A stretch of DNA of 19,091 nucleotides from Jimgerdemannia flammicorona (Eukaryota; Mucoromycota; Endogonomycetes; Endogonales; Endogonaceae): positions 1 to 19,091 of the forward strand of contig RBNI01002260.1 of NCBI GenBank assembly GCA_003990745.1. The letters are read 5' to 3'. A model generated the notes under the pieces. It did not search any database and had not been told where the DNA came from. It worked only from the letters and a program-made list of their open reading frames with translations. Position numbers and translations under genes: made by a program. Positions 1-19,091 of the stretch are shown in pieces; position 1 is the first letter of the stretch; every line of letters starts with the position of its first letter.

Positions 1-1053
1 GTGTTTCCTCAATCATCAGTAACTATATTATCTCTCTACGAGCAGTTTTTAAATAAAATAAACTTTTCAGATATATTTGTTTTATTATATGTGAGGGGCA
101 AAATTTAAAAACCCCGGTTATTTTTACAGTTTATTAATATAACTAAGCAAAATTCTATTTGTTGTATATACTTTATTTGTTATGCCAAATCACGTAATCC
201 ATCATCTGGTCTAAAGAGATCGCGAGGGTGTAGTGATTTCTTGGGGTAATGACAAACCTAAGATATGCAGTTAGTGGAGTCAATGTTGATATCATCAATA
301 TAACTACTAATTCTTTTTTACTAATTATGTTTTGAAATATTGCACCGATTTATGAGTGCAGTAGTGTTGATAATAGTTATTATCAAATATCTATCATTTT
401 ATAACAGGTAATTGCATTTTAAAGCTCAGGAACATGTCCAAACATAGGACATCTGACATGTGTTATTATGTATTTGTGGCTGGTGTCATTCGTACTAGGC
501 ACATATCCGCGGGTGATATATCATTTGGAACTGAACTTTGATGCAGGAAGCCTGGCGTTAACATGCGTTTGATATAATAATATTATATGATTTTGTAGTA
601 GTTTGTTGGGATGCCTTTGGGGCAGAGATGGGTGGAGTGTATGAATAAGTCTAAGAGTTGACATGGTCTTTCATTATTCCATGGCCTGGTGTGGTGCCAT
701 ACATATATCCTGGAGCTATTGGTATATTTGTATTCAATCGCTTCAACTTTTAACGTGCACGTTAATCGATGCATGTGCAACTCTCATAAGCAAGTATATG
801 ATTTGTATCACACAATGCATAACAATCCCACTCAAATAGGCAATTGAAGTGGGTTTTGATGACTCACTATATACTATTATACTATGGGCGCTCATCAACC
901 GTCTTCTTGGTTTTTGATGGGACTGCGATGTGCTTTTTCGAGATGGTGCATCCATTCCAATCAGCCTGCGTCTAGCAGCACAACAAGGATCCAATCCCGT
1001 CCATCGTTTTTATTGTCGGTTACACCAGCCGGGTTTGCAATACTCGAAGTGGA
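1..1053. other. Non-repetitive region with no supported gene
   Basis: This stretch has mixed composition with scattered CpG, unlike the CpG-depleted DNA further right. The open frames in it (all under 90 codons, on both strands) show no recognisable motif and no convincing splice-linked extension. A perfect 16-bp palindrome lies at 750-765. It could be intergenic DNA or a UTR of a gene off the left edge; the sequence does not decide. Confidence 0.5.
750..765. repeat. Perfect 16-bp palindrome
   Basis: TTAACGTGCACGTTAA equals its own reverse complement. Such a site could bind a dimeric regulator, but only the symmetry is visible and no regulated gene next to it is supported. Confidence 0.5.
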
Positions 1054-1360
1054 GATATAATTTTATATATTACGATGGTGATGGCGACGACGCCGTTGGA
1101 GACCTAGACCTCTTTAGAATAGCTTCGGAGAAAAATAAGTATACCGCCTCACCAGGTCCATACTATGTACCAGCATGACCTCCGGATTTAGAAGTCAGCC
1201 TCACCCCCGATGGACAACCTTTTTGGCATTAGAGAGTCACGTACCCTGCCCCGGGCTTTTTTTCTTATCAGCTGAGGTAACAATTTCACCCAAATTTGGA
1301 ATTGCGCCGTGCGAAGTTTGTCAATGGTTCTAACGAAATGTTCACGTGGACCTCTCCTAC
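1054..1360 (+). repeat. Diverged direct repeat, copy 1 (possible coding relic)
   Basis: The first 77 bases (1054-1130) match 1451-1527 at roughly 87 percent by eye. Weaker matches follow: a GACCTCC.GATTTAGAAGT block, a GATGGACAACC..TTTTGG block, and an ACGTGGAC box at 1338-1358. In the matching frame both copies read YNFIYY-(D/N)G-x-GDDAVGDLDL and later DGQPFW, so peptide-level similarity persists through the DNA differences. That suggests a duplicated coding segment. Copy 1 has in-frame stops after the first block, so it is probably a pseudogene. I do not recognise the family. Confidence 0.55.
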
Positions 1361-1450
1361 TGATGGATGCGTGGGTTGTCCCAGTGAAAAAATGTGTCAC
1401 GGTCCTGGACCGCGTTGCAGTCAAAAACTTGGCGCGTCGATCACGTCATT

Positions 1451-1900
1451 GATATAATTTTATTTATTACAATGGTAGTGGCGACGACGCTGTTGGAGAC
1501 CTGGACCTTCTTAGAAAAGCGTCGGAGATTAGGGAACGCGCCTCACTTCAGGTCCATACCACCAGCTGTACGAAACGCCCTATTGATAGCATGACCTCCA
1601 GATTTAGAAGTCCAGTTGCAACAACATTCTCTGATGGACAACCCTTTTGGTATCAGAGTAACATTGTACCCATACACCCTGGGCCTTTTCTTCTTAGGCC
1701 TATGTATCACTCTGAGCTTGCATTTTTATTTACCCACAACCTGCTGACATGCACCAATATAAACACTATTGGACTAAGATGTAATGGGGACGCTCAGTTG
1801 TCCCGGTCACAATTTTACCATCGCTCTTGCGCCATGCGGAATTGTCGATAGTCCTTCCCATTTTGGCAGGAAAAACAGAATGTCCACGTGGACTTCTCCC
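1451..1900 (+). repeat. Diverged direct repeat, copy 2 (possible coding relic)
   Basis: This is the second copy of the unit that begins at 1054, offset by 397 bases at its 5' end. It runs open in one frame from about 1453 to 1851, giving a peptide with GDDAVGDLDLLRKASE, then DGQPFWYQSN and a Cys-containing tail. The ACGTGGAC box lies 542 bases from its partner, so copy 2 carries about 145 extra bases or copy 1 has lost them. No start codon is evident before the first block, where an in-frame TGA lies at 1450-1452. The product is unrecognised; it may be an exon or a decayed paralogue. Confidence 0.5.
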
Positions 1901-2246
1901 ATGAAATGCACAGATGGGTTAAAAACACTCCAGTTAGACATACCAAATGCAACACTGATCGATTTATCATACTTGCTCGGTGTCGCGTGGCGTGGTTATA
2001 CTTACTGTGTTGTGCGCACTCCTTTGTATATGTAGTCCCTCTACTGGAACCCAAGACCCCAAACCAGGGTAAAAGCGACCGTTTGACCCGCACTAGCTCA
2101 TGAGGCATAGCAGCAGACATTTCACATTTTATTGTCCAATGACATTTCGGGGTGCTTTACAATTAATGACCCTTACATTATACACTGAATCGATGACAAG
2201 ACAACGTTGACCTCCTTTGCAGGCTTGAGGGTGCTTGGTACATGGC
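1901..2246. other. Stretch without a supported gene
   Basis: Only short frames in both directions are present. The right part would be the 3' flank of the minus-strand gene model at 2247-2810. No repeat or RNA gene is recognised. Confidence 0.4.
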
Positions 2247-2810
2247 TCATATATTCCATGTATATATGTACCCTCGCCATCGACGAAAACCCACACGGGG
2301 CTGTGAGTGGTTCTTTGTATTACTGCCCGAACAGATGCCTGTAATGGTGTATTGTTTCGAGATAGCTGTCATGATGGGATTGCTCACATGTTGTGGCTCG
2401 AGATTGTGATTTGCAAAGAGGATGACTTTCCCGACTGTGACACTGAAAAGTGGAAATTCAAATAAGAAAAGAGAAAAAAACATAATGAATTTGGAAAAGG
2501 GTTATTATTAGTCAAATACCTTTTGATAGCCTCAGTGAACTGTGTCATATTAGCTTTGATTCGCGAAGCTGTTGGTTTCACATGTACTGGCCGTATAACA
2601 AAGCCGCAAGTCAGCAGAATGATGTTTATATCAGAATGCGAACAATCCCTAAAAATTCACTTCTAAACCTGAGTCGTACATCATGAGGTCAGGTTCCTTT
2701 TTTTAATAAAAAAAAAAAATGAAAGAAAATATACCAAAAACAAGATACCTAATCTGCTGTTGCTGCTGTTCCTTTGCCTTAACGATCCTCTTTGAACCAA
2801 AGATCACCAT
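2247..2810 (-). CDS. Candidate three-exon gene, unknown 128-aa product
   Basis: Three minus-strand segments join in frame through canonical fungal-sized introns. Exon 1 (2810-2749) begins ATG and encodes MVIFGSKRIVKAKE followed by a Gln run; donor GTATCT at 2748. Intron 1 is 100 nt and ends TTTTTAG at 2649. Exon 2 is 2648-2520; donor GTATTTG at 2519. Intron 2 is 77 nt and ends CTTTTCAG at 2443. Exon 3 is 2442-2247 and ends TGA. The lengths 62+129+196 total 387 nt, and both junctions are phase 2. No domain is recognised: there is no signal peptide, and only a modest hydrophobic patch (INIILLTCGFVI) in exon 2. CpG is normal here, so it is not obviously mutated like the transposons. The model rests on splice consensus and frame only. 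The true gene could have more exons, or this may be chance. Confidence 0.35.
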
Positions 2811-3222
2811 TTTCCTTGGTATGGGTCAAGATCACTAACCACTTTTTAGCATCTATACATCAGCTTTTTTTTTAAAAGAAAAAAAAACAATTAATTGTCA
2901 TTATAATCTGCTAGAAAATATTATTATATGGGTATATATATATATATAATATATCTTTGGTTGATGGCAAATGCAGAAGTTTGCAACAATGCTTCATTGA
3001 AGAAAGGTCCTTTTCTGCACCCAACCCCAAGTTCTCCAACCACCTCTATGGAGTATTCTCTAAAAATATTGCCAACTTGAGTGATGAACAATAGAGCAAA
3101 ATTGTTTTGCAAGTAGTTCAGTATACTGCTCTCTAGTTTGATAAATACCTAGAGTTTAGTACTAAGTCTAATGAGTAGACTTAAGCAAAGAAAAAAAGGA
3201 TGTAAAGAATTATTACAAGCCT
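2811..3222. other. AT-rich stretch without a supported gene
   Basis: Homopolymer A/T tracts occur around 2866-2888 and a TA run at 2935-2953. Between about 2955 and 3110 both strands can be read as protein-like peptides of up to 62 codons, but neither has a recognisable motif or flanking splice signals, so no gene is called. Confidence 0.4.
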
Positions 3223-3223
3223 C

Positions 3224-3453
3224 TGGAATTTCTGACAGAAATTCCTATGGAAATTCCTATGGAAATTCCTAGAGAATTTCCAACTAGTAATCATAATTAT
3301 CCAAAGTAATATATATAACTATATATGGACATATCCAGCATACTATATTTAGTTATAGCCTTTAATTATACATAAATACTCTCTATACTGAGTATGTTGT
3401 AATCTCAGCTCTGCTCTCTCTGTATATAAGAATAAAGTAGTATTCTTATCACA
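3224..3453 (+). mobile_element. Possible solo-LTR relic
   Basis: The segment starts TGGAATTTC and ends CTTATCACA, so it is bounded by TG...CA. It contains CTCTCTGTATATAAGAATAAAG near 3415-3436, where a TATA-like box and an AATAAA signal are packed together as in many LTRs of fungal Copia-type elements. No second LTR, no internal coding region and no exact target-site duplication were found. The call is tentative. Confidence 0.28.
3225..3282. repeat. Palindrome plus short tandem repeat
   Basis: GGAATTTCTG and CAGAAATTCC form perfect 10-bp inverted arms around a single A (3225-3245). This is followed by tandem 12-mers of the form AAATTCCTATGG up to about 3274 and an inverted AGAGAATTTCC. The run looks like the edge of a transposable element terminal repeat. 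Confidence 0.6.
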
Positions 3454-3559
3454 AACCCTCAGATCTGACTTGTTAATAATTTCAAGTCTAATTAACTTAG
3501 AATATAAGCACAGCCATTCTTATCTATATAAGAACCCAAAAGTGATACCTAGACTCTAC

Positions 3560-3909
3560 TGTAATAAGTAATTAAAACTCAGTACTTTCTCAAGAACTTG
3601 GAACTTAGGGATGATAGTTATTATTGATTATCTGTAATATATTAATTTTATTGATATATAGTTTTATTACAACTACTATAAATTCAACCCATCTTATAAA
3701 GTAATTCTGAGTTAACTAAATACTCACAAAAAGTAGTATATCAAATTTTAAGACTATGTGGTTACTATTGAGCAAAAGTTATATATCAATATATATATCT
3801 AAAATACTTAAAAATATATATATCAAATGATATTATTTAAATTCCATCAATGAATATGATCTCAGTTACTTAAGCATAAATAATCTAAGACAGATATAGA
3901 TCTAAATAT
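3560..3909. repeat. Left part of degenerate AT-rich array
   Basis: The block at about 3735-3860 (AAAAGTAGTATATCAAATTTTAAGA, then TTACTATTGAGCAAAAG, then ATATATATATCAAATGATATTATTTAAATT) resembles the units at 10,870-12,230 to the right of the Gypsy element. It contains no CpG up to the element edge. It is the left flank of the insertion. Confidence 0.55.
3906..3909. other. Candidate target-site duplication, left (ATAT)
   Basis: ATAT abuts the left LTR, and ATAT (10631-10634) abuts the right LTR. A 4-bp duplication is within the range for Ty3/Gypsy elements, but the AT-rich surroundings make a chance match easy. Confidence 0.4.
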
Positions 3910-4088
3910 TGTAACGTAGCAGATACTTAACCTTATAAGTATGTCAGATTTCTGTATCTTGAATTTTTGATCTTCTTTGACTCCGCAGAGTCCTCAGTAT
4001 GCAGGGGTGGGTGAGTTCGAAGTGTATCTGCCCGCAGGCTTACTAGTTCCTTTGCTTTCTCTTTGCTTTGAACTATTTTGATCTGAGG

Positions 4089-4120
4089 TTTATTCACTCT
4101 AAGATACTGGGTTATTTATA
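4089..4120 (-). promoter_or_regulatory. 3' LTR TATA-like box and polyadenylation signal
   Basis: TATAAATA (4120-4113) is followed 18 bases downstream on the element strand by AATAAA (4094-4089). In the 3' LTR the AATAAA would end the element transcript. The motif pair is visible; function is inferred. Confidence 0.5.
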
Positions 4121-4180
4121 CAGGTTTTGCTAGCTATGTGATGGCTAAGTTATGTGGCTAAGTTTATGAGTCATTTAGTA

Positions 4181-4270
4181 AGTGTTGAGACTTTTCGACA
4201 TTGTCTAAATGCTATACTATATTGGGTCATCGATTTCACTAGTGTCAAGATATTTTGACATTGTCTAAAT
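4181..4270. repeat. 60-bp-period direct repeats inside the LTR
   Basis: AGTGTTGAGACTTTTCGACATTG (4181 on) recurs 60 bases later as AGTGTCAAGATATTTTGACATTG, both followed by TCTAAAT. A GCTATACTATAnTGGG block follows at 4211 and again at 4293. The same arrangement occurs in the right LTR at about 10429-10518, so it is ancestral. It may be an enhancer-like U3 repeat. Confidence 0.6.
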
Positions 4271-4377
4271 TGGAGACTTGGCTAACTATAAGGCTATACT
4301 ATACTGGGAATTGGATTCAGGTACTATGATCAAATGTCTAATTCCCTCTGATTCAGATTACTAATTTGGATTGACCA

Positions 4378-4881
4378 TCACAACTTCCTCCTGAATAGGT
4401 GATTCATCCCTGAAATATCCTATTCAAACTCCCAGGCTTCGATGGTTTTTATGGTCTTATACTGTGCAATTTGTTGTATCACAGTTTCCCAATGATGTCA
4501 CCTGACTTGCTCGAAGTCTGTAGGGATTATTCCTCGGAGATAGGCTAGTGCTGGTTCATCATCTCGAAACAGCTTATGAATTCTCTTGGCAATAGTGATC
4601 TGTGAATAAGAGAGCTGACATTCTGCGATCCAATCTTCTTTAGTCATTTCCACATTCTGATTGAGTATCTGTCCAAGCTTGAAGTACTCTTGGAACTCTG
4701 TTCTATGATGGTAGGCCTTGAAGTGCAAAATTTGGGAGAGGTGGGTCTGGACAATACTTTGGATACTGTCATAACATTCCTCTATAGTCGGGGGTTCAGT
4801 AGTATGCCACTGTCTCTCAATGGCTCTTTGGACAGCACTAGTGATCTTGAGTGCTGTTTCAGTACTTCGGTTATTGGCCAT
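4378..4881 (-). pseudogene. Unrecognised ORF downstream of integrase (ORF3)
   Basis: An ATG at 4881, 13 nt after the integrase stop and in another frame, opens 127 codons to a TGA at 4498-4500. Reading on in the same frame gives WETVIQQIAQYKTIKTIEAW, a TAG at 4420-4422, then SGMNHLFRRKL and a TGA at 4378-4380 just inside the LTR. Protein-like sequence continues past both internal stops, and each is one transition from a sense codon, so the ancestral protein was probably about 167 aa. It looks mostly helical and soluble, with no signal peptide, membrane segment, chromodomain or Cys/His cluster visible. It is not an obvious envelope. It could be an accessory protein or a continuation of Pol. 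I do not recognise the family. Confidence 0.6.
4383..4392 (-). other. Polypurine tract
   Basis: AGGAGGAAGT directly precedes the TGTGATGG start of the 3' LTR on the element strand. This is the expected place and composition for the plus-strand DNA primer in reverse transcription. The same bases encode Arg-Arg-Lys near the end of the ORF that precedes it. Confidence 0.8.
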
Positions 4882-4894
4882 GATACTTCTTGAG

Positions 4895-6124
4895 TCAGTT
4901 TCGGTGGATGGTGGTAGGGATGATTGTGCCTGAAGTTTTTCGTAGCCAAAAGGTAGTCCCTTTTATATCTTGCACCAGGTAAGGTCCTTCCCATTTGGGC
5001 TCCAGTTTTCGTGACCATGAAGCTTCTATCATATTCCGATATACCAGGACTTTGTCTCCTATCTTAATAATCTCCAAAGGCTTGTGGGTCTTTTCTGCAT
5101 TATTCCGTTGAAGTGTCTGTACCTTAATAATGTAATCTTCAGCCTTCTTCCTAATTTGGTGTAGTTTCCTTATCTCTGTGTCCACGTATTTCCAGACAGC
5201 ATCTCCATTGGACAATAAGGTTCCTTGAGAACTTTCTTCTCCGAACAGCATTTCTCGAGGGGTGAAGTGGGTGCTTTGTGATCGAATATCCCGAAGAGCA
5301 GATAATGCTATTGGCAGAGAGTGATCCCAATTTTCGTAGTTATCATAGATCTTAGCAATAATATTCTTGAGTGTTTTGTTGGTCCTTTCTGCTTGTCTGT
5401 TTTCTTGAGGGTAGTATGCCGTGGTCTGAATATGCTGGATTCTGTATTTCTTATAGAGGATCTCAAAGAACTGGTTCACGAATTCTGTTCCTCTGTCTAT
5501 GGTGACTTGTGCTGGGGTCTTGAATCGGCAGATGATTTCTTTGTGAAAGAAATCAGCAATTGACTGTACATTGGCTTCCTTGAGGGGTCCTGCCTCTATC
5601 CATTTTGTGAAGAGGTCCACAATGACAATAATATATTGGTTGCCAGTCAAGGTCAAGGGTAGAGGACCAATTACATCCATTGCAATGTGGGCGAATGGTA
5701 TCAGTTCTATGTGTGCTGATCCTGGGGCTTGATTTCGTTGGTCTTGTTTTTGTTTCTGGCATTTGTCACAGATCTTGACAAATTGTCTGATATCTTCCTC
5801 TATTCCTGGCCACCACATTGTTCTTCTTGCTTTGTCATATGTGTTTTTTCCTCCTAGATAGCCAAGTTCATGTATTGATTTCATTGCTTGCTCCTTCTTG
5901 TGATCAGGTATGACTAGTAGTTTTCCTTTCTTCAGTATTTCTCCATCAGTTTCAAATTGTTTCCATGTCCTGCTGATAATTGTTTGTGTCCATTCTTCTA
6001 GATATTGGGGCATCTTTCGCTGTCCCAGGTAGGTAATGATTCCATAGTAGAGTTCCTTATTCATGATTGATTTGCTGGTTGGAGGTGTTTCGGGATATTC
6101 ATGAGAGGGCATCTGCATTGGCAT
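4895..6124 (-). pseudogene. Integrase domain of Pol
   Basis: This 409-codon open segment holds a complete-looking integrase core. The N-terminal zinc finger reads H85-x3-Y89...C119-x2-C122; the second His of the HHCC finger is Tyr (codon TAT at 5860-5858), a C-to-T type change. The catalytic triad is present as D150 (AMDVIGPL), D210 (TIDRGTEF) and E246 (QAERTN); the Gly usual before QxER is Arg, another transition. A GPY/F module (KWEGPYLV) lies near the C-terminus, with about 30 residues after it and no chromodomain. The ATG at 6124 is probably not a real start: this is the downstream part of the polyprotein, entered after a frame change near 6095. The enzyme would insert element cDNA into the genome in the nucleus. 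Confidence 0.92.
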
Positions 6125-6540
6125 TGGTTCTTCCTGGGTGGTGTACGATTGTTACATCATAGGCTTGTATGTAACTTCATGATCCATCTGGCATAGATTC
6201 CTTTGGGTTGTCCAGTGGTCAGTAGCCAGGTGAGGGCTGAGTGGTCTGTCTGGATAGTGAAGTGTCTTCCAGCGAGGTAGTAGTGGAACTTTTCTACAGC
6301 CCAGATGACTGCGAGGCATTCCAACTTATAGGATTCGTATTCCTTTTCAGCTCCTCTGGTTCCTCGGCTCAGGTATGCGATGACATACTCTACTTTGTCT
6401 TTCTTCTGGGCCAAGACTGCTCCAAGTCTTTGTGCACTTGCATCTGTCTGCAGGATAAATTCTTGAGTCCAATCGGGTCTTCTAAGGATGGGTGCCTGGG
6501 TCAGTCTGACCTTGAGTTCATCAAATGCTTTTTGTTGCCT
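6100..6540 (-). pseudogene. RNase H domain of Pol, broken by a frame change
   Basis: The open stretch contains KAFDELKVRLTQAPIL, then the first catalytic Asp in LQTDASAQ, a Glu in YKLECLAVIWAVEKF, and an Asp in QTDHSALTWLL. These are typical of the Ty3/Gypsy RNase H that degrades RNA in the RNA-DNA hybrid. At about 6170-6180 the frame is lost (a few bases appear inserted near TTACATACAAG). The following frame supplies AYDVTIVHHPGRTNANADALS, the usual end of this domain with its last Asp. Another change near 6095 leads into integrase. In the family this domain is fused directly after RT, as here. Confidence 0.9.
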
Positions 6541-6943
6541 GCGTCCATTGGAACTTGATATCCTTCTTATTGAGTTTGTAAATTGGGCCTGCGATATTGG
6601 AAAATCCTTTAATAAATCTGCGATAGTAGGAGGCAAGTCCCATGAAGGCTTGGGCTTCAGTGACTGTAGTAGGTCTTGGATATGCTGCTACTGCCTATAT
6701 CTTGAGGGAGTCCATGTGTGTTCCAACTCAGTTGATAACATGTCCAAGATAAGAGATCTCGATTTCTGCAAACTTGCATTTCTTTGGTTTGATGTAAAGA
6801 TCATACTTCCTCAACCTTTCCATCATCTGCTGGATGTGCTACAGATGTTCTTCAGCTGTCTTGCTGTAGATGATTACATCATCTACATAAACCATCATCC
6901 ATCTCCCCATGTCATAGTGGAAGATTTTGTTCATCATTTGCTA
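6537..6943 (-). pseudogene. Reverse transcriptase, catalytic and C-terminal part
   Basis: This continues the RT frame after the TAG at 6941-6943. It contains the YVDD active-site motif at 6889-6878 followed by VIIYSKTAEEHL, then RKYDLYIKPKKCKF, ISYLGHVIN, and TEAQAFMGLASYYRRFIKGF, the standard C-terminal RT blocks of Ty3/Gypsy. Stops interrupt it at 6839-6841 (TAG), 6728-6730 (TGA) and 6695-6697 (TAG), each a single transition from a sense codon. At about 6537-6541 the frame shifts into the RNase H segment, best explained by a two-base loss within WTQA-QQKAF. Confidence 0.9.
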
Positions 6944-8158
6944 GAAGCTTGCTGGTGCATTGCATATTCCAAATGGTATTCGCAGATAGACATAGGTTCC
7001 GTCTGGGGTGATGAAAGCTGATTTCTCACTCACTGCTTCTGTGAGGCCAATTTGATAGAATCCTGAGTATAAGTCCAAGGTGCTGTAGTACTGTACTTCA
7101 TCTCTCAGAGTTACAAGAATATCACTGATAAGGGGTAGTGGTTGGCAATCCTTCTTGGTAATCGAGTTGAGCTTTCTATAATCGGTACAGAGTCTTGGTG
7201 CAAATTCTCTTGGCTTGCTTCCTTTCTTCAGGGCTAGTACGACTGGTAAAGCCCAAGGACTACTGGCTTCTTTGATGATACTGGCTTCTTCCATCTGCTT
7301 GATTTCTTCTCTGAGCCATTCGTGGTAGGCTGGCAGGATGGGTCTTGCTTTTTGATAGATTGGTTTGGTGTCTCCTGTATCCACATCATGGTAGTAGTGT
7401 GGGGTCTTTCCTTTGATATTCTTGAAATCTGTGGCAAGGACATCCTCGAATTCATAGAGTATCTTCTTGAGTTCTTTCTTGAGTGGAAACTCATTCCCAA
7501 TAGTGTAGCTGTGCTTGGTTGTGGTTTCCTCCTTCTTGTGATCTAATTCAGTGATTTTGGTGCTGGCAAATACTCCTCTTTCTATAGATCTGAATCCTTT
7601 TCTTCCTCTCTCTGTTTCCTGCAACTTCTTGACTTCCATGATCTTCAGTTGAAGAACTGGGAAGATCAGCATCTGTGCCAGCCGATCCTTCTTCTTGACC
7701 GGGAATGGAATGGTAGGATTGTGATTTCTAGTAATGAGTAGTATTTCCCCAATATAGTCTGAATCGATGACTCCTCCTTCAATGGTGATTTCGCTTTTTG
7801 CCAGACTGCTTCTTGTTTTGAGAATTCCAACATGGTCTTTTGGAATGGTCATCTCCAGTCCAGTTGCAAGTAGGGTGGTTGTCTGGGGCTCCAGTACAGT
7901 TTCCTCTACTGTGGCGATATCCATTCCGGCTGCATTTTCTGACTTGTATTCTGGTAGAACTGCATCAGGATGGATTTTCCAAATCTTGACCTTGATCTCT
8001 TCTTCATCGTCGCTGTCTTCTAGGAGGGCTGGTGATTCATCATCTTCCTCCTCTTCCTTTTTTCTTCTGGCCTGTTCTTCGAGAACCTTCTGTTTTCTTT
8101 CATAGTGGATCTTCTTGATTCCACTGGTACATTGGTAGCAATCATTGATATGCTCCAT
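6941..8158 (-). pseudogene. Pol segment: acidic linker, dUTPase and N-terminal RT
   Basis: This open frame of 405 codons starts inside Pol, in the same frame as protease upstream. Residues 1-30 carry a small Cys cluster, and 31-54 are very acidic and basic (KKEEEEDD...EDSDDEEE). Residues about 55-195 match trimeric dUTPases: motif 1 AGMDIAT (77-83), motif 2 KTRSSLA (114-120), motif 3 GGVIDSDYIGEI with catalytic Asp132 (128-139), motif 4 KKDRLAQML (156-164), and a damaged Gly-rich motif 5 RGRKGFRSIE (184-193). dUTPase hydrolyses dUTP to dUMP and pyrophosphate. RT then begins, with SSPWALPVV, LCTDYRKLN and the motif A Asp362 in LDLYSGFYQI, and stops at TAG 6941-6943 inside the FQQMMN-type block. 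A dUTPase between protease and RT is unusual for a fungal Gypsy element. Confidence 0.93.
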
Positions 8159-8224
8159 ACAGTATATCTTGATTCCATGGGGGTAGACTCCTTGTGGTGC
8201 ATATCCTTCTGCAATCTTCTTGCA

Positions 8225-8992
8225 CTATTCCTCCTCACTCATCCATCTGACTTTCTTTTTCTTTTTCTGCATGGTTACCATATAGGCTTCCTCTTGCTCA
8301 TCTTCTTCTTCCTCCATCTCGGGGAGTACTCCTTTGTTAACATTGATAGGGATTCGCATCTTTTGTCCTCGGTAGACAATCTGCATCTTCTGTGCATTCA
8401 GATTGATTATTGCTCTGGCTTTATGAAGCCACTGGTTGCCAATGAGGATGTCATAGTTGGTTGTATTGGTTACAATCACATCAACCAGGATGGTTGCTCC
8501 TCTGAACTTGATGGGAACGTCTCAGATCTTTCCCAGAGGGGTGGCTCTTGTGCCATCTGCTGTGATGAATACCAGCTTGGTTGCTTCTTTGATCTCCCAT
8601 CCTAAGCGGTCTACTGCCTTCTTGCTGAGGAGACATCCTCCTGCTCCTGTGTCTATGATGACTTCAAAGATTCTATCTTCAATTTGGCAGGTTGCATAGG
8701 CAGAAGTCTTGCGGTTGTCTTCACTTTCCTCTCCAGAGTCTTCTTGAACATTATTGGCCTCGGTTATCTTCCAACCTTACTCCTTGGTGGTTTCTGCCAG
8801 TCCAAATCTCATTTGCTGCCTAAATGTGGGGATTTCTGCCAGCTGGCCGAAGGTTGCATTGACTTTTTGTTAGCTGAGATCCTTGAAGATATCATACTTA
8901 AATGTCTTAGTCTTGCGAAGCTTCTTCTCCTTTTCTCCTTCACTTGCTGGAGTGGTTCCTCAGGATATCTTAGACTGCTTGCTCAAGCTCTA
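8225..8992 (-). pseudogene. Start of Pol and aspartic protease
   Basis: In the frame shared with dUTPase-RT, Pol begins overlapping or abutting the gag end and reads KTFKYDIFKDLS, NATFGQLAEIP, then the protease: EVIIDTGAGG with the catalytic Asp at 8653-8651, followed by LVFITADGT, and TNYDILIGNQWLHKARAIIN, the C-terminal half typical of retropepsins. It would cleave the Gag-Pol polyprotein. Stops occur at 8960-8962 (TGA), 8870-8872 (TAA), 8777-8779 (TAA), 8522-8524 (TGA) and 8225-8227 (TAG), all transition-type. A TAG at 8990-8992 bounds or also interrupts the frame. The frame is +1 relative to gag. Confidence 0.88.
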
Positions 8993-10055
8993 TATCTTGA
9001 TCCATTTCTTCAGCTTGGCTTTCTGTGGTTATTTCAATCTGCTTTTCCACTGGGTTCTTCTTGGGTCTTCCTGGCGGTCTCTTATAGGGTTCTTTGCGAA
9101 CATCCTTCTTAGTGGTCTGAGCAGGATAGGCCTCCCATTCCTCATCTGAATCTCCAATTTCCTCGAAGGTGATGATGTTGGCTTGCTCCTTATTTCTAGT
9201 AGTAGCATTACTTGGCTGGGCCTTGCGCTTGGTTTTACTCATACATTCATATGAGTAGTGGCCTTCTTCTCCACAGCTGTAGCAGGTACCTTTCTTCTTG
9301 TCTGAGGTGGCAGCAAACTTCTAAATTGGGCGGTGATCTCTTTCTCTGATTTCTTTTACCACATCTCCTAGGTGAGCGATCATTTCAGTGAACTGCTTGG
9401 CAAGTTCTTCCATAGGATCACTGTTTCTCTGTTGTTCTGTAGCTCTTGGCTGAGGTGTGTTTCAATTGATCATAGTGGTAGAGATTACACTAGTTGGCTT
9501 GGGTGCTTCGATTCTAATGCCAGTAACTCTTTTCATTGTGTGGTCTTGTGGATGTCTGGCTATCTAATATCGCTGAGCATAGGTGACCTTTTGTGCCAGA
9601 TCCAGGACTACTGGTGATGAGCAGATGGCCAAGGCTATCTCTGGGTGAACTCCTTTCATGAAGGTTGCTTCAGCTACTTGGTCTCGGATGGCATCAGCAT
9701 AATCTGTAAGGATTATCTGATATCGGATTCTTGTGAAGAATGTGTTTGGATCCTCACTTATTCCTTGACATATTGTATTGAGCTGGTCCTTCAGGGCTTG
9801 CTTGATCTCATCTGTGTAATAAGTATTCCAGAGCCAGGTCTTCTGTGCTGTCAGTGTAGCATCGGTATCATTTCCTGCATGGGTTGCAGCTATGAATACT
9901 GCTCTTGCAGGTCCTCATAGGCTATAGGGCATGAGGGCTACTTGCTGTGCTGCAGTTAAGATCCTAACTGCGGCATACTGCTCAAAATCATCTATGAAGG
10001 TGACGATTGATTCATCTGAAATATATCCATGAAATACAGGTGGTCTCATATCCAT
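8970..10055 (-). pseudogene. Gag (capsid and nucleocapsid)
   Basis: One frame runs from ATG 10055-10053 to TAA 8970-8972, about 361 codons. It encodes MDMRPPVFHGYISDE, then a retrotransposon capsid-type region (TAQKTWLWNTYYTDEIKQAL, TFFTRIRYQI, VAEATFMKGVHPEIA), and a CCHC zinc knuckle CYSCGEEGHYSYEC (9284-9243) that would bind the element RNA. A basic tail with an AT-hook-like KRPPGRPKK follows. Internal stops are TGA 9915-9917, TAG 9564-9566, TGA 9462-9464 and TAG 9321-9323. The frame stays readable upstream of 10055 until a TGA, so the true start may be earlier. Confidence 0.88.
9243..9284 (-). other. Gag CCHC zinc knuckle
   Basis: The codons give C-x2-C-x4-H-x4-C exactly (CYSCGEEGHYSYEC), the nucleocapsid knuckle for packaging element RNA. 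All four zinc ligands are intact although the flanking gag frame has stops. Confidence 0.9.
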
Positions 10056-10157: not shown

Positions 10158-10630
10158 TGTAACGTAGCAGATGCTTAACCTTGTAAGTATGTCAGATTTC
10201 TGTATCTTGAATTCTTGATCTTCTTTGACTCCACAGAGTCCTTGGTATACAGGGGTGGGTGAGTTCAAAGTGTATCTGCCCACAGGCTTACTAGTTCCTT
10301 TGCTTTCTCTTTGCTTTGAACTATTTCGATTTGAGGTTTATTCACTCTAAGATACTGGGTTATTTATACAGGTTTTGCTAGCTATGTGATGGCTAAGTTA
10401 TGCAGCTAAGTTTATGAGTCATTTAGTAAGTGTCAAGACTTTTCGATATTGTCTAAATGCTATACTATATCAGGTCATCGATTTTGCTAGTGTCGAGATA
10501 TTTTGACATTGTCTAAATCGGAGACTTGGCTAACTATAAGGCTATACTATACTGGGAATCAGATTCAGATACCGTGATCAAATGTCTAATTCCCTCTGAT
10601 TCAGATTACTAATTTGGATTGACCGTCACA
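10158..10630 (-). repeat. 5' LTR of the Gypsy element
   Basis: This is gapless with the left LTR over 473 bp. It begins TGTGACGG and ends GTTACA on the element strand. It contains the TATA-like box and AATAAA, and would hold the promoter for the right-to-left element transcript. It keeps CpG at several sites where the left copy has TG or CA, and the reverse holds at others. Confidence 0.95.
10337..10368 (-). promoter_or_regulatory. 5' LTR TATA-like box and AATAAA
   Basis: TATAAATA (10368-10361) followed by AATAAA (10342-10337) is identical in layout to the other LTR. Here the TATA box is the likely core promoter of the retrotransposon. The start site is inferred, not shown. Confidence 0.5.
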
Positions 10631-10859: not shown

Positions 10860-12230
10860 TATATTTATAGTATAGATATATCAAAGTATGAATCTAAATT
10901 GCATATATCAAATGATATTATTTTAATTTTATCATTAGATATAATATTATGGGTGACCTGTTGGCCCAATAATCTAGTATTCTACTTTTTATAAATAATA
11001 AGATATTTAGCAGAAATCTTCAGATAAGTCATATATATAATCAATCCAACTTTTTCAAGAACCCTATATTGCTTACAAAAAGTAGTATACTGAACTATTG
11101 AGTCATCAATATAAAGCTTCTATTTCTTCTTGAATAATATATATAACTATCTATTACCTTAAGATAGCTTTATATATATATATATATATATATTAGCAAA
11201 GTAACTATCTACTACTGAAGAACAGCTATACTGAGAATCTTTATAAAAGTTCAAATTTCATTTTAGAAGGCTATAATAGTTACTGTTAAGAAAAAGGATA
11301 TATCAAAGCATATGTATATCTAAAGAATGTAAAAGTATACATTGAATAGAATTATTTAATTTTACTATTGAGTGCAATGTTATAGATAACTTAATAGGCT
11401 GATAATTCAGTATACTACTTTTTCTGAATAACAGAGTATCCAGCAGAAATTCCCAGATAAGTTACATATGCAATTAATCTGGCTTTTTCTAAAAACTCTA
11501 TATTGCTTAAGAAAAGTAGTATTCTGAACTATTTAGTTATTAGTAATATATCTAATATCAAAAGAACAGCTACATCTTTTTCTCTTTAAGCAATATCACT
11601 ATCTACTACTGGAGTTTATCTAAAGAATAGCCATACTGAGAATTTTTATAAAAGTTCAAATTTTATTTTAGAAGATTATAGTGATTACTATTGAGAAAAG
11701 AGATATACTAAAGTATATATCTAAATTATATAAAAGTATATATATCAAATAGAATTTTTCAATTTTATCATTAGATATAATGTTACAGCCCAATAATTTA
11801 GTATATTACTTTTTGCAAACAATAGAGTATCTAGTAGAAATCTCCAAATAAGCTGTATATGAAATCAATCTGACATTTTCCAAAAACTCTATGTTGTTTA
11901 TAAAAGGTAGTATACTGAACTATTCAATTATCAATATGAGGCTTCTATTTCTTTTTGAGTAATGCAGCTGCCTAATCTAACTAAAGAATAGTCTTCTTGA
12001 GTAATATAACTATTTACTACTAAAGTTTATCTAAAGGACAATTATACTAGGAATCTTTATGAAACTTTAAACCTCTATCTCAAAGACTATGATTACTATT
12101 GAGCTAAAGGGATACTAAAGTATATACATATCTAGAATATATAATAGTGCAATTTTATTATTAGAGATGATATAACAAATCTGATAATTCAGCATACTAC
12201 TTTTTTGCAAAATCATAATATAGTCATTTA
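10860..12230. repeat. Degenerate AT-rich tandem array, about 0.4-kb units
   Basis: An anchor resembling AATTTTATCATTAGATATAAT recurs at about 10925, 11358, 11761 and 12151, spaced 433, 403 and 390. Further shared blocks recur in the same order: AAAAGTAGTATACTGAACTATT, CTATCTACTACTG, ACTGAGAATCTTTATAAAAGTTCAAATTT, and TACTATTGAGAAAAG. The units contain no CpG and have no coding potential. Another unit lies left of the Gypsy element near 3735-3860. They may be decayed terminal repeats or a satellite. Confidence 0.75.
11170..11193. repeat. (TA)n microsatellite
   Basis: An uninterrupted run of about 12 TA units sits in the AT-rich array. Confidence 0.9.
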
Positions 12231-13440
12231 TCTTCAATTAGGATTTTGTAATAATTTATAATAGAAAATGCATGAAAGTAAAATTGAAGTAGTCCAGCTA
12301 GTATTATTTCTTCAGATATTATATATTTGACAAAATATAGCTCTATAATCATATGAAGAAATGTCTTATTTACAATATTATAGAGCTTGAATTTACTATT
12401 ACTATTAAGCTACAGAGAGATTAATCATTAAATAGACATTATATAAAGTAAAAATTTCAAATATATAAACTGATCAAATCTTATTAATAGATAGTAATTC
12501 CAAGTTAACCAAAATTCAGTAAACTTGAGATTGCTTTACATTTATAAAATGTAAAATTTGGCCATTTGATATAGTATGATGCTAAAGCCAAGAAAATTAG
12601 GATAGTTCAAGAACTAATATAATACTAGTTTAGTTTATCTGATATTATTTTTGAAATATTTGTAACATTTGTAACTTAATTACTCATCTTTTTGATATTT
12701 TAACTATTATTTTTAATAATATTACTAACTTATCTCTATTACTTTTATTATGCTTCCTCTTGCCTAATATTATTATCTGGCCCTTCTTTATTATTATCTA
12801 TATATTTTAACCCTTTTTTAATTCCATTAAGTCAATCTGAATTATATATATAACTAATGAATTATCTGTCATAATATATCCCATCTTCTCTGCTCAAAAA
12901 AAATCTATTCTACTATCTTTATTATTAATATCACTCTTACTTTTAAGTATTTATTATATTACTATCATTGTGATCACCATTATACTCATAAATATATTTT
13001 CTAATCTCATCAATTTTACCCTCACTACTCTTCTTCTTCTGCAACTAATATTGATGATATACTGATTAAAGATTTTCTCACATAGATTTGAACTTTTTGT
13101 ACTCATAATTGAGGTAGACTTTCTGATGTATGGTGAGAGCAGTATTATAGTATATATGTTTCTACTAATTGTTTGATATTATAGATCAGGAGAAATCATA
13201 GCTCTATATAATAGATAAGGAAACTCTTTTCAGTCTTATTCTAATAAATCCATCCTTTGAATTGAACCTCAATAAAATCTATTATAATATATACAGTAGT
13301 ATAACAGAGAATCAATGAATATACAGTGATGGTTGAGGTCTAACCTGTATAATTCACATTATACCAACTTCAAGTAATGGCTTATTGATACAATTCAGAG
13401 AAAAGGTACTATAAAAATATCATCAAGTAAGAGTTCCAAC
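12231..13440. other. AT-rich region without a supported gene
   Basis: Very AT-rich and almost free of CpG. A perfect 11-bp inverted repeat (AGCTCTATAAT at 12339-12349, ATTATAGAGCT at 12377-12387) is present. Between about 12,700 and 13,080 the plus strand is pyrimidine-rich, and short minus-strand peptides can be read, but none has a motif. It is probably heavily mutated transposon DNA. Confidence 0.5.
12339..12387. repeat. 11-bp inverted repeat with 27-nt spacer
   Basis: The arms AGCTCTATAAT and ATTATAGAGCT are exactly complementary. Chance hairpins are common in such AT-rich DNA, so no function is claimed. Confidence 0.5.
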
Positions 13441-13443
13441 AGG

Positions 13444-15428
13444 TATGCTGGCTCAGGTGGACCTGGGGCATTCAGCTGGCAGAATGTGGGGAGAGGGTAT
13501 GGACTGGGGATGGGGGCTTTTGGAGGGTTGAAAGGTGGAGAAGGCTCTGGGGGAGTGGAACTGGAGGAAGGCCTGGCCCCTTCAGCTTTGCAGATAAGGT
13601 GAAGGTGAGTGGATGACTGGCTGGAACTAGGGCTGGTGCTGCTGAAGAGAAGGGCAAGACTAGTATCAGGCAGGAGAGTAGTACTCAGGTGGGGGTTGTG
13701 GGTGTAGGTGCTGGAGGTACTGTAGCTGGGAGAGTGACTGTTGATAGGAGTATGATGGGAAATCAGGAAAAAAAAAGAGATGTGACAGTTGATGGCCAGA
13801 TGGGGCAGGGGTTCTCGATGCAGAAGGGAGATCTGGCAGATGGTGTAATGGGGCTAGTGATGGCACCATTTCTCAAGAAGTTGATCTTAGAGTTTGTGGC
13901 TACCTTGTGCTTCTGGGGCTTGATAGTGATGGTGAGGATGGTCCTGGGGCTTATTTCGAAGCAGGTGGCTGGAGCAGCCTTGGTGAAGTTCCTGAAGGGT
14001 CTAGAGGGGGTTGAGGTGGGCTTTGAGGAGATGGGCCCACTGAATGAGGCTCTGAAGACTAGAGTGGTGGTCAGGGAGGTAGTGGTCTCCATGGTGTAGT
14101 GCTTGAGGTTGGACCCTAGGGTGGTGCAGTTACTGGTGAAGGGGGTGCCTATGATGATGAAGGATGAGACTAGGAGGAGGGTGGAGGAGATGATGGTGGA
14201 GTATAGTGATGTGGTAGATATTAGCTTCCAGATGTAGGAGGGGACTACCTTCAGGACAGGAGATGTAGATGTCAGGATTAGACTGGTTGAGAGAGAGGCC
14301 ATAGGAAAGATGAGTAACTGGTCCTCAGTGTTGATGTGGGGGGGCATTTGTCTGTAAGATATCAAGAGTAAAAGAGAGTGAAGAGGAGGAGGAGGACTTG
14401 TTGGAGGCTCTGGAGGAGTTGAGTAATGCTGTCAAGAGGAGGGCAAAAGTCTGGAAGTTGTTTGTGGAGTTGATGCATCTGGAGATTATAGGTGGGAAAC
14501 ATATTCACATAGACAGGAGGCAGTGAGAGAGGGCTCAAGGATGTAGGAGATAGAGGGAGCTGCTGGCAAGTATGGAAGGAGGGGTGAAGATGAAGGCTGG
14601 GAGCTCTGAGATATCTGAGGGCATAGAGGCAAGTGTCTGGGCTAGTAAGGGAGGAAGAGATATGGCAGAGGGCCTGGAGGGGGCTGGGAAGATACCGCAC
14701 ATAGACCCATTTGCTGATGGTACATTGGAAATCTGGGAACCAACCTTGAATGATACTCCCCCTCTAGTCCAGCAAGGTCCAGCTGCAAGGGGTCAGACAG
14801 TAGAGGATGTGTTAATGTAAGGTACTCAGTGGGTACACTTTGGGATTCCTGATGTGATAAAAGACAGGCAGGTGGTAGCAGTTAGTGAGGATGAGCTGGT
14901 GGATGTCTCAGAGGAGGAGTGGGATGAGACAGCCAGTGTAGGGGCTGATACCATGATGCTCGATGCAGGAAGGCCAGGGATACTGGGAGGGAAGAAGGTG
15001 GGGAACCTGTTGTAGATGAGCAAGATGATGGATAACTTCATAGCTGAGGAGTTGGGGGAAGTAGACCTGTATATGATGCCTGAGAGTACTGGGCATAGAT
15101 TCTGCATAGAGATGGAGTAGTGAAGGCACTGAAGGCAGAGATACTTGCGATTTTCCTGGAGAAGGAGGGATATGAGGTTGATCAGGTAAGGGAGGCTGAG
15201 CTGGTAGTCATTGCTGGTGAGCGAGCTGCCTACTGTTGGGTAGAGCATTATGGGTTGCAACTCTGGCAGGAGGTATATCTGGAATATCATGAGAATTTTG
15301 AGAAAAAAGAGGATGGGAAGATGGCTGAAATTCTGATAGGGTTGGAGGCACAGGCAGCTGAAGAGAAGGTACTAGCTGTAGAATATGACTTAGACTTGGC
15401 ACAGGAGGAGTTGAATGTAGATTTGTAG
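13444..15428 (+). pseudogene. LINE ORF1 (Gag-like), broken
   Basis: A single protein can be followed by switching frame at three places. A Gly-rich start (SGGPGAFSWQNVGRGYG) shifts near 13550 into PGPFSFADKVKVSG. This frame continues through the 136-codon open stretch at 13689-14099 and LDPRVVQLLVKGVPMMMKDE. A run of seven G at 14338-14344 shifts into an acidic stretch, ESEEEEEDLLEALEELSNA, and the open stretch 14572-14820, then VVAVSEDELVDVSEEEWDE. A G run at 15000-15003 shifts into EPVVDEQDDG and the last 103 codons (15120-15428), ending TAG. Several TAG/TGA stops also interrupt it. No CCHC knuckle was seen. LINE ORF1 proteins bind element RNA. A 200-codon minus-strand frame over the same DNA is judged a shadow. 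Confidence 0.65.
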
Positions 15429-15459
15429 AGGATGTGATTGATAATCAACATTATTTCTT

Positions 15460-18400
15460 ATGAATAGTACAACTAATATTTTCTCTCTGAATGTGAATAG
15501 GTTATGGAGATCTGAGTAGTATAAGAACATTTTTACTTGGCTTAAGGGATTGGAGGCTGATCTCTTTTTACTGCAGGATATATGGTGTGAGGGTGAGGAA
15601 GATTAAGTGGAGTGGACTAGAGAATAGGGTGGAGCTACTGCTTGGATTGGTAAAGTGGCAATTCTGATAAGGAAGGGTAGGGGATATTTGGGTGGAATTA
15701 GGAGCTAGAGTGACCATTTGGTCTGGAGAGAATAGCATTAGCCTGGGTGGGAATCAGTGAGGGTTGGCTTCTGCTACTGCCCTGTGGTTAGAGGTGAGAG
15801 GATCATGTGGATTAGAGATCTACTGGAGGGAGATATTCTCTTGGAGGAAGGAGTAGATGTTCTGGGTGGTGATTTTAATATGGTTTGGGATCTGTAGTTA
15901 GATAGAACTGATGGAGAGAGGTATGCAGATGGGAGGAGTAGTGGTCTGAATACATGGGAGGAGGTGGAGAACCTTAGCTCCTTAGGGGATATGGGCCAAA
16001 TATAGTGGGACAATACAAGGGTCTACACACATTGAGTGATTGGATTGGGTATGAGGATTGACTGAATTCTGATGGCCAAATGTTGGGGGGTTGATGTTTG
16101 GAAGACTTTGGAGGTGGAGTAGTGCCCATGGTCTGATCACTGAGGGCTATTAGGACAGGTGCAGTTTGGAGAGAGTGGAGATAGACCCAGACATTGGTAC
16201 CTTAACTCCTCCCTGCTGGCTGAGAAGATGTTGTAGGACCTATGGATGGAGAACATTCAGGTGAAGATCACTATTTGGATACATGAGGGTTCATCTGTAG
16301 GTATCTGTTGGATGAGGTTGAAGAAGGCTGTAAGGGTTTATTGGGGAGGAGCTAGTAAGAAGGCTGGGTGGCTGAAAAGGAAGCAAGTTAGGTGTACTTC
16401 TAATAGACTGGTGAGATTGTAGATAGAATGGACTGATTTGCTTTCTTCTGCAGAGATGGAGGATTGGAGGTTAGAATGAGTGAAATTAGAGGTAGTGGAG
16501 CTGTAACAGGTATTGCAAGAGGAGAAGGAGAATCACATGAAAGAAATAGCTGCCAGGCTAAGATGGCAGGGGCTTGAGGAGGGAGAGCAGTCTTCTAGAT
16601 ACTTGTCTAGGCTCCTCCAAGCTAGGAGAGTGTGCCATCGATGGGATGGGGTCTTTGATGCAGAGGGGGAAATGGTGCATAGTACATAACAGATCCTGGA
16701 GGAATTGAAGGAGAGATGGAGGGGTCTGTGGAGTGAGGAGGAAGGGGGTGTGGATGAAGAGGCAATTGAAGATACATTGGAGGAGTGAGTACTGCTGCAA
16801 GTAGAGGGACTTAGTGACTTGATCCTACCAGTCCAAGAGGAGGAGATCCAGAGAGTTCTTGCAGCAACTAAGCTTGATACAGTACCTGGAGAGGATGGCT
16901 TACCTTGGGATTTTTGAAATAAGATAGCAATGGTCCCTGGAGTGTTAGGGGAGATGGCAGCTCTCTGTGATTATGTACTTCTGAAGAGCGAGTGGGTTGA
17001 TGAGCAGGACTTGGGGCTGGTAGTCTTATTGTATAAAGACAAAGGGAGGAGGGAGGACTGGAAGAACTGGAGACCAATCATGCTTCTGGATATAGACAGA
17101 AAGATAGTAACTAAGATGATTGTTGCAAGGCTACAGAAGGTTGTCCAACAGGTGCTGAGTGAGGAGCAGTGGGGCTTTGTTGGAGGCAGGCTTATCAGAG
17201 ATGGGCCTGTCTGAGTGTATGACATCATTGAAGAGATATGGGCTTGTAGACTGAATGGATGACTGGTCTTTCTGGACCAGGAGAAGGTCTATGACCATGT
17301 TTGGCAGATATGGCTGGGTAAGGTGCTGGATAGAATTGGTGTCTCTCTACAATTTCAAGCTTCTATGTTAAATCTATTGGAGAGCAATAGAGCTGTATTG
17401 ATGTATAATAGCTACTGGGGTCTGGCATTTCCCTTGGAAAGAGAAGTTCCTCAGGGAGATCCACTGTCTCTTATTCTCTATGCCCTCTCATTAGAACTAT
17501 TGATAGATAGGATTCACAGGAAGGTGGCAGAGCTCTCTATGTTTGGTATGATATAGAAGATGGGGGCTTTTGCTGATGATATGGTAGTTGGACTTAGCTC
17601 AGTAGTAGACATTGAGGCACTTAAGAAGACAGTAGAATGGTATAAAGTACATTCTGGGGTGAAACTCAACTGGCATAAGTGTGAGACAATGGTGTTAGGG
17701 AATGGGCTAGTGAGAGGAGATATCATTAGAACAATTGTCTCTATAGGAGAGGTGGTACAGTATCTGGACATCTTCCTTTCTGTATATGGATCTGTCTTGC
17801 CACAAGTATGGTGGGAGAGGAGGGTAACTATTTGGGGAGAGGCTCTTAGAGGTTGGGGAGGTCACTACATCTCTCTGATAGGGCAGGTGTTGATTCTGAA
17901 TGTCTACTAGTTCTCCAAGCTATGGTATGTGACCTATCACTTAGACTTCCTAGCTTGGGTAGTGAAGAGACTGATGAAACTGGCTAGAGATTGGATTTGG
18001 GCAGAAAGAAGGTCCCAGATCAGATGGGATACTCTTGCAACACTGATGGTTAGGGGATGTCTAGGTCTTGTAGATCTCCCCAAGAAGCTATACTGCCTGT
18101 AAGCTTGGTAGTTGAAAAGAGCTGTTGAACTACAGGAAGGGGGTTGGGTGCTGCTGATACAGAAGATATGGAAGGTGAGATTCTCCCCTCAAGGGTCCTT
18201 GGGAGATTTGCTCTCTCTGGTTGGACTGAATGGGAGCTAACAGCTATGGTATAAGGGCTTCTGGTGAGGGGTGGTAGATGGAGCACACCAAATAGGCCTG
18301 TACTGGCAAGACAATGAGGGGGAGGTGAGGTGGGGTTGGGCTATGTGGCAATAGGACAGACTGCTTCTGGGGGGTGTTTCACTTACTGAGTTTGATATTG

Positions 18401-18995
18401 GTGATGGAGTAGAATATCAGCAGAGACTTGGCCAGGATCTTTGGCCAAGTGATTGGCAGAGAGTGGAGATTGGTGAGGAGTGAGACTGGGCTGGAGTCTG
18501 GTCATAGAGTGCTGAGATACAGTGGTGGCTTCCTTCCAAGTTCTGGGTAGTATGGTGGCAGATGTTGCAGAGGAATGTCATGTTGAATTTCCATGCTGGG
18601 CATCTAGTGGAGGGTGGCCGATTAGATTGTGAGGTATTTTATAATATAGGGCAAGTTGGGGGATTTGTACAGATGCCAGAACATTGGCTAGGAGAGTATG
18701 AGGTTTTGGAGGACTTTTGGATAGCTGTAGGGGACTGGCTGGGTGTGGAGAGAAGGCTGGATAGAGAGAGAGATCACTGGGAGGATTTGAAATCTCAGTT
18801 AGTGGGTGGTGTAGGCAATGGTTGGCTCACTATAGGGTGGGTTTTAGTAGTATAGATAGGGCTGGCTGGACATTGGCTCTTTGTTTTCGAGGAGAGGCAC
18901 TAGATGGATATACAGGAGAAGTTGTTAAGGTGGGAGAGGTTGATGGGAGATTTGCTGACTGGGTGGTGGGTTGGTTGGGGTCCCCAGAGTGGGTG
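15460..18995 (+). pseudogene. LINE ORF2: AP endonuclease, reverse transcriptase and C-terminal Cys/His region
   Basis: One frame stays readable through about 30 stops from ATG 15460. The endonuclease domain shows FSLNVNRLW, LFLLQDIWCEGEE, the GGDFN motif (15865-15879) and the SDH catalytic end (16132-16140); it nicks the target DNA. The reverse transcriptase shows VVLLYKDKGRREDWKNWRPI, EEQWGFVGGR, motif A FLDQEKVYDHVW with Asp at 17275, PQGDPLSLILYALSLELL, and FADD at 17569-17580. Toward 18540-18720 comes FWVVWWQMLQRN and LDCEVFYNIGQ..EHWLGEYEVLEDFW, where a zinc-finger-like region has Tyr in places where Cys would be expected. Stops include TAG, TGA and TAA, each one transition from Trp, Gln or Arg codons. 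The frame becomes uncertain beyond about 18850. Confidence 0.88.
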
Positions 18996-19091
18996 ACATC
19001 ACTGTCTGATGGAAGGGATCTGTGAACAGAGTGGTGGGTGGGTGGAGATGGTATTTGACAAAGTGGTTTTTCATTGAGAGGGGGTGGGGGG

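Follow-up and report, generated by a model that had tools for sequence, protein, structure and literature searches.

Retroelements with a dUTPase have been described from several fungi and animals, and the published accounts are cited here as far as their available text goes. In Postia placenta, the Gypsy element PosPlaTy3-5 has the dUTPase between the protease (PR) and the reverse transcriptase (RT), in other families it sits at one or the other end of Pol, and the elements in the dUTPase tree of that account contain a chromodomain (PMC2864245). LTR elements with a dUTPase were reported in Phanerochaete chrysosporium (Novikova and Blinov 2008; cited in PMC2864245, PMC2774666), as was the dUTPase-bearing Tmt1 of Tuber melanosporum (Riccioni 2008; cited in PMC2864245, PMC5408684, PMC6431247), and enrichment of PF00692 along with retroviral families was described for Entomophthora muscae (PMC11105155). 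Juno, Vesta and TelKA of bdelloid rotifers also hold the dUTPase between PR and RT, with an extra Zn knuckle before RT in Juno (PMC5408684), and the same place is occupied in a giant Gypsy-like element of planarians (PMC6431247). The betaretroviral dUTPase lies N-terminal to the protease, in trans-frame with the nucleocapsid (PMC4531489).

The element studied here comes from Jimgerdemannia flammicorona (Endogonales, Mucoromycota) and lies on the minus strand of the window, i.e., of the whole 19,091-nucleotide stretch of DNA analysed. An HSP70 segment from this genome (L079) shows 100% identity, over the query, to a J. flammicorona HSP70 (P0128), and a second entry of the species (P0129) likewise gave 100%; a Gossypium entry (P0127) ranked first by score but shares 68%. 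By the description of PosPlaTy3-5 the two are alike in being fungal Ty3/Gypsy elements with the dUTPase between PR and RT, and by the descriptions that cite them the Phanerochaete elements and Tmt1 resemble it as fungal LTR elements with a dUTPase. The window element has in addition a small Cys/His module (LINK) and a separate integrase frame, neither of which is mentioned in the available portions of the Postia placenta account (PMC2864245). The Zn knuckle of Juno, an element of an animal host, follows the dUTPase, whereas the Cys/His module of the window element precedes it; the planarian element has its dUTPase in the same place but a far larger polyprotein and an animal host. The betaretroviral and window dUTPases are both trimeric-type and next to the protease, although the betaretroviral order resembles that of two other J. 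flammicorona lineages (A and C, see below) and not that of the window element. Since dUTPases have been reported in fungal, rotifer and planarian elements, this kind of element is already known, and a sequence-only reading of the window, which had left it possible that the arrangement was undescribed, is superseded by the accounts in print for Postia placenta, bdelloid rotifers and planarians (PMC2864245, PMC5408684, PMC6431247). The PR-dUTPase-RT arrangement is not new; in the Endogonales host it is present in many copies, and the genome holds more than one arrangement. Among the papers listed from one open-licence library there was no earlier report of dUTPase-bearing elements of Endogonales or Jimgerdemannia, nor of J. 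flammicorona elements with the dUTPase on the other side of the protease.

Results and Discussion

Structure and State of the Window Element

The element is 6.7 kb long and is bounded by two 473-base LTRs (Table 1). It was classed as Ty3/Gypsy from its TG..CA LTRs and from the domain order PR, RT, RNase H, integrase; the complete order from 5′ to 3′ is gag/CCHC, protease, LINK (Cys/His), dUTPase, RT, RNase H, integrase and a small frame termed ORFX. The LTRs show 94.08% identity, with 28 differences that are transitions only, and the flanking ATAT is a weak 4-base target-site duplication within AT-rich DNA. The protease segment of a sister copy matched PF13975 (E 8.7e-13). Pfam searches gave no family at E ≤ 0.01 for the gag piece 9914–9564, and none scored above its cut-off for LINK or for ORFX. 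Each of the six Cys/His positions of LINK is kept in 43–47 of 48 distinct rows; the window copy of this module holds one stop, and Tyr replaces the first Cys. ORFX shares 53% amino acid identity with its counterpart in a diverged element of locus L012 (dN 0.269, dS 1.727). No chromodomain was detected in the C-terminal piece of the integrase (window 5401–4898; Pfam search, E ≤ 1), the place where chromoviruses carry it, and in this the window element differs from the elements of the Postia tree, as does its host in phylum. The window copy is dead, because gag, protease, LINK and RT contain stops and RNase H does not share the frame of RT.

Table 1. Features of the dUTPase-bearing element in the window.
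Feature	Position	Strand	Basis
5′ LTR, 473 bases, TGTGA...TTACA	10158..10630	-	LTR pair comparison
gag region with CCHC zinc knuckle, stop-broken	8970..10055	-	zf-CCHC 3e-06 in 9320-8970; frame reading
Aspartic protease, IDTGAGG, one in-frame stop	8248..8719	-	frame; PF13975 match of sister copy
LINK, Cys/His motif CPH...YC.EH...C..C and acidic tail	8012..8242	-	conservation among copies
dUTPase domain, motifs I-V	7574..8002	-	PF00692; PDB dUTPases; yeast Dut1 comparison
Reverse transcriptase, stops from 6943 on	6563..7459	-	RVT_1 2e-10; frames
RNase H, frame-shifted versus RT in window copy	6160..6582	-	ORF 6687-6157: PF17917 4.2e-34, PF17919 1.2e-33
Integrase, H2C2 and rve, own frame, ATG inside ATGAATAA	4898..6064	-	PF17921 8.9e-16, PF00665 2.4e-11
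ORFX, small conserved open frame 3′ of integrase	4498..4881	-	conserved in diverged L012 element
Polypurine tract AGGAGGAAG before 3′ LTR	4384..4392	-	sequence reading
3′ LTR, 473 bases	3910..4382	-	LTR pair comparison

Elsewhere in the window, the region of about 13200–19091 is LINE-like, with a weak RVT_1 match below cut-off at 17557–17910, a GC skew of about +0.34 to +0.55 and a CpG observed/expected ratio of 0.04. Degenerate repeats with a spacing of about 390–435 bases, 22–25% GC and no CpG occupy about 10860–12130, and a direct repeat pair of about 110 bases (82% identical) was found at 1054–1163 and 1451–1559.

The dUTPase Domain

The profile PF00692 matched residues 89–212 of the open frame 8224–6941 (minus strand), corresponding to window 7960–7589, with E 2.3e-27 and 95.7 bits against a curated cut-off of 22. 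A phmmer comparison of the segment with PDB gave 70 distinct sequences at E ≤ 0.001 (best 2.7e-21), and a chance match of motifs is ruled out by the Pfam and PDB E-values. The five dUTPase motifs are present in order, with the catalytic Asp in motif III, and 16 of 18 compared positions equal those of yeast Dut1, both departures being in motif V. Judged by these comparisons, the segment encodes a true dUTPase domain of the trimeric type.

The sequence-only reading had placed the five motifs in one frame at 7574–7996 and had proposed a profile search of the segment: the motifs were found there, in the open frame given above, the extent is in agreement with the domain limits of 7574–8002, and the search returned the PF00692 match. 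It had also put protease and RT in the same frame as the dUTPase. The shared frame is confirmed, but in the window copy protease, dUTPase and RT do not form one open frame, because two in-frame stops, at about 8524 inside the protease and at about 8227 just behind it, separate the protease from the open dUTPase-RT frame, in which the RVT_1 match (E 2e-10) lies downstream of the dUTPase.

Sister Copies and Constraint

When the genome of J. flammicorona was searched with the 143-residue dUTPase domain and the best 150 of 5286 first-look candidates were scored, all 150 matched, with 82–100% identity. The window element belongs to a high-copy family, with at least 150 matches to the domain. Two overlapping sets of loci, 30 picked by dUTPase and 30 by RT and each with the window, were then compared by six-frame matches; both consist of the best-scoring copies and are not a random sample. 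The order protease, dUTPase, RT was found in every locus holding all three (28/28 dUTPase-picked, 25/25 RT-picked). dUTPase and RT shared a frame in all loci holding both (28/28 and 27/27 in the two overlapping sets), and protease and dUTPase did so in 25/30 and 19/25 loci, respectively. In the sampled copies of the window's family the dUTPase lies between PR and RT, and its placement there in a fungal Ty3/Gypsy polyprotein, originally read from the window alone, is borne out by the Pfam matches, the LTRs and the order in the sister copies.

Among the 30 RT-picked loci, 27 hold the dUTPase, whole or nearly so in 25 and partial in L051 and L070. L055 and L068 stop at a contig edge no more than 103 bases ahead of RT, just short of the dUTPase, and in L065 the copy is cut off within the dUTPase. 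No copy cleanly without dUTPase was detected among these 30 loci; the search for sister copies, suggested together with the profile search, thus showed that the domain is kept. A piece of a host dUTPase gene lying in or beside the element by chance insertion or by an assembly join is hardly conceivable, as the junctions around the dUTPase are repeated in tens of different contigs, which rules out an assembly or host-gene artefact, and also in metagenome protein P0001, with 63% identity across the full query. When the genome was searched with yeast Dut1, the four loci inspected among the 150 matches listed (L075–L078) were all lineage C elements and not the host's own dUTPase gene.

In the RT-picked set, dN/dS was 0.166 for the dUTPase, 0.185 for RNase H, 0.304 for the protease and 0.349 for LINK; the two RT pieces gave 0.146 and 0.209, the first RT piece being favoured by this choice of loci. 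The value of 0.123 obtained for the dUTPase in the dUTPase-picked set is likewise biased low because these loci were chosen by dUTPase similarity. The dUTPase is under purifying constraint, to about the same degree as RT. Of the motif residues, eight (I-D, II-R, II-S, III-D, III-Y, IV-Q, V-R, V-F) occur together in 42/48 distinct rows; when the Arg of motif IV and the second Gly of motif V are added, the full set is kept in just 11/48. The motif IV Arg is replaced by Q, W or a stop, which are the products expected of C-to-T and G-to-A decay.

The differences among copies at the Arg of motif IV and the Gly of motif V could also mean that the domain is retained for a purpose other than the removal of dUTP, for example for folding, for assembly or for binding nucleic acid next to the Cys/His module. 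This module neighbours the dUTPase in lineage B, to which the window element belongs, and in lineage C, and a precedent exists in the dUTPase-like protein of bovine immunodeficiency virus, described in the available text as important for replication while being without dUTPase activity (PMC4531489). We regard such a purpose as unlikely, since 43–48 of 48 distinct rows retain most of the catalytic residues that belong to motifs I, II, III and V, the variable motif IV Arg changes as CpG decay would change it, and lineage A has no Cys/His module between dUTPase and protease.

Decay of the Copies

In the RT-picked copies the transition rate within CpG was 0.283 at C and 0.244 at G, as compared with 0.046 at C and 0.042 at G outside CpG, 0.011 at A and 0.027 at T, and transversions were below 0.005 in every class. 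Sorted by the next base, the C-to-T rate was 0.283 for CpG, 0.057 for CpA, 0.048 for CpC and 0.023 for CpT, and among the contexts outside CpG, the C of CpA (0.057) and the G of TpG (0.075) stood somewhat above the others. CpG-derived changes account for 21 of the 28 LTR differences. The CpG observed/expected ratio was 0.29 in the element, 0.00 in the AT-rich region, 0.04 in the LINE-like region and 0.69 in window 1–3700. The RIP indices of the element, TA/AT 0.69 and (CA+TG)/(AC+GT) 1.55, are values that we take to be not RIP-like. The indices and the C-to-T context together rule out CpA-type RIP as the main process, a slight CpA excess remaining.

This CpG-centred decay, similar on both strands, fits loss of methyl-cytosine after insertion, and the similar rates on both strands argue against editing of, or uracil in, one cDNA strand. 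The copies have probably decayed by loss of methylated CpG in integrated, putatively methylated DNA.

These results bear on the idea, put forward in the sequence-only reading, that the dUTPase protects the element from C-to-T decay of repeats in its host. The host does mutate its repeats, as the low CpG ratios of the element, the AT-rich region and the LINE-like region show, but the decay is located in the integrated copy, LTRs included, and the dUTPase-bearing elements are themselves decayed. Loss of 5-methylcytosine yields T and not U, and it takes place in integrated DNA and not in the dNTP pool, where a nucleotide-pool enzyme would act; the dUTPase cannot act on such decay. A benefit of this sort is accordingly unsupported, and we consider it very improbable.

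With good though not full confidence, we instead favour an ordinary dUTPase function, the window holding a dead copy of a high-copy Ty3/Gypsy element. The Gag-Pol of this element carries the trimeric-type dUTPase between the protease, with its small Cys/His module, and RT. As a part of Gag-Pol, the dUTPase would most likely be packaged with RT in the virus-like particle, where, presumably released by the protease and assembled as a trimer, it would split dUTP into dUMP and pyrophosphate. The element cDNA could then be made with little uracil, even when host dUTPase is low, and the element would benefit. Limitation of uracil in cDNA, the role proposed in the sequence-only reading, would be plausible and ordinary for the dUTPase of such an element.

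Other dUTPase Lineages in the Same Genome

Three arrangements were found in J. flammicorona. Lineage B, that of the window, has the order protease, LINK, dUTPase. Lineage A has the dUTPase directly before the protease (L001–L008, L010, L013; the contigs of L004 and L008 were also cut at greater length, as L011 and L012, and L014 holds a dUTPase only). Lineage C has the order dUTPase, LINK-like module, protease (L009, L075–L078); it was grouped by domain order, the dUTPases of L009 and L075–L077 sharing 40–43% with weak RT support (85/47). The betaretrovirus-like placement, with the dUTPase N-terminal to the protease, is thus seen in lineages A and C and not in the window element. B and C both have the Cys/His module between protease and dUTPase, on opposite sides of the protease, and their modules resemble each other, most constantly in the outer CPH and CxxC; the module of L009 is without the middle Cys and His. 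RT identity is about 57–59% between A and C and about 32–44% between B and either of them, and dUTPase identity across lineages is 31–42%, a comparison that includes a second B-type element in L010. In that locus the lineage A element (1480–5021) adjoins part of the second B-type element (6006–6893), which is 58% identical to the window dUTPase and 92–94% to metagenome protein P0001.

In the RT tree, the metagenome elements P0026, P0052, P0066 and P0081 grouped with A and C, whereas P0001, P0002, P0003 and P0005 grouped with B. A single clade of dUTPase bearers was rejected by this tree (p-AU 1.85e-06; 13 rows against 20, the rows counted as without dUTPase being database fragments whose upstream lack of the domain is assumed, as exemplified by P0005, which begins at RT). 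The dUTPase tree did not reject it (p-AU 0.083; 17 rows against 10, with few cellular rows, P0124 and P0125 counted as such by guess, and long branches). A single origin of all dUTPase bearers is therefore disfavoured by the RT tree and not by the dUTPase tree. One gain followed by a loss is possible in place of two gains; we lean, short of proof, towards two.

The Integrase Frame of Lineage B

The integrase frame of lineage B is displaced from that of RNase H by +1 in 24 of 30 loci (L045–L074) and by +2 in five, the frames being the same in one. In 26 of 27 aligned copies, namely those of the 30 loci with integrase from the first query residue, the TAA of the RNase H frame overlaps the ATG of the integrase frame within ATGAATAA (window 6064–6057, minus strand). 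The same stop-start layout was found in the diverged element of L012, and lineages A (L013) and C (L009) have RNase H and integrase in one frame, by position. Such an overlap could serve reinitiation or frameshifting. A narrow search of the open-licence literature found no published match for a separate overlapping integrase frame.

Locus L012 also contains, at about 3590–4610, an insert of about 1 kb at the integrase start of its lineage B-like element. The insert has an A-run at its end, and over 906 bases it shares 81% identity with window 18186–19091.

Taken as a whole, a history in which dUTPase and Cys/His module moved as a set around the protease among Gypsy lineages only distantly related to each other, the dUTPase was gained at least twice and the integrase of lineage B became separately framed through ATGAATAA is a tentative proposal that we find possible, yet doubtful.

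Conclusions

The range of dUTPase-bearing Gypsy elements is extended by these results to the Endogonales. The conserved integrase overlap may represent a separate expression device and, if the joint proposal above were true, the lineage B integrase would not simply be part of Gag-Pol. Since many copies and different dUTPase positions occur in one genome, J. flammicorona is a good place to study how retroelements gain a dUTPase. Whether the domain was gained from hosts or passed among retroelements, and what effect it has on the success of an element, are questions open to study there.
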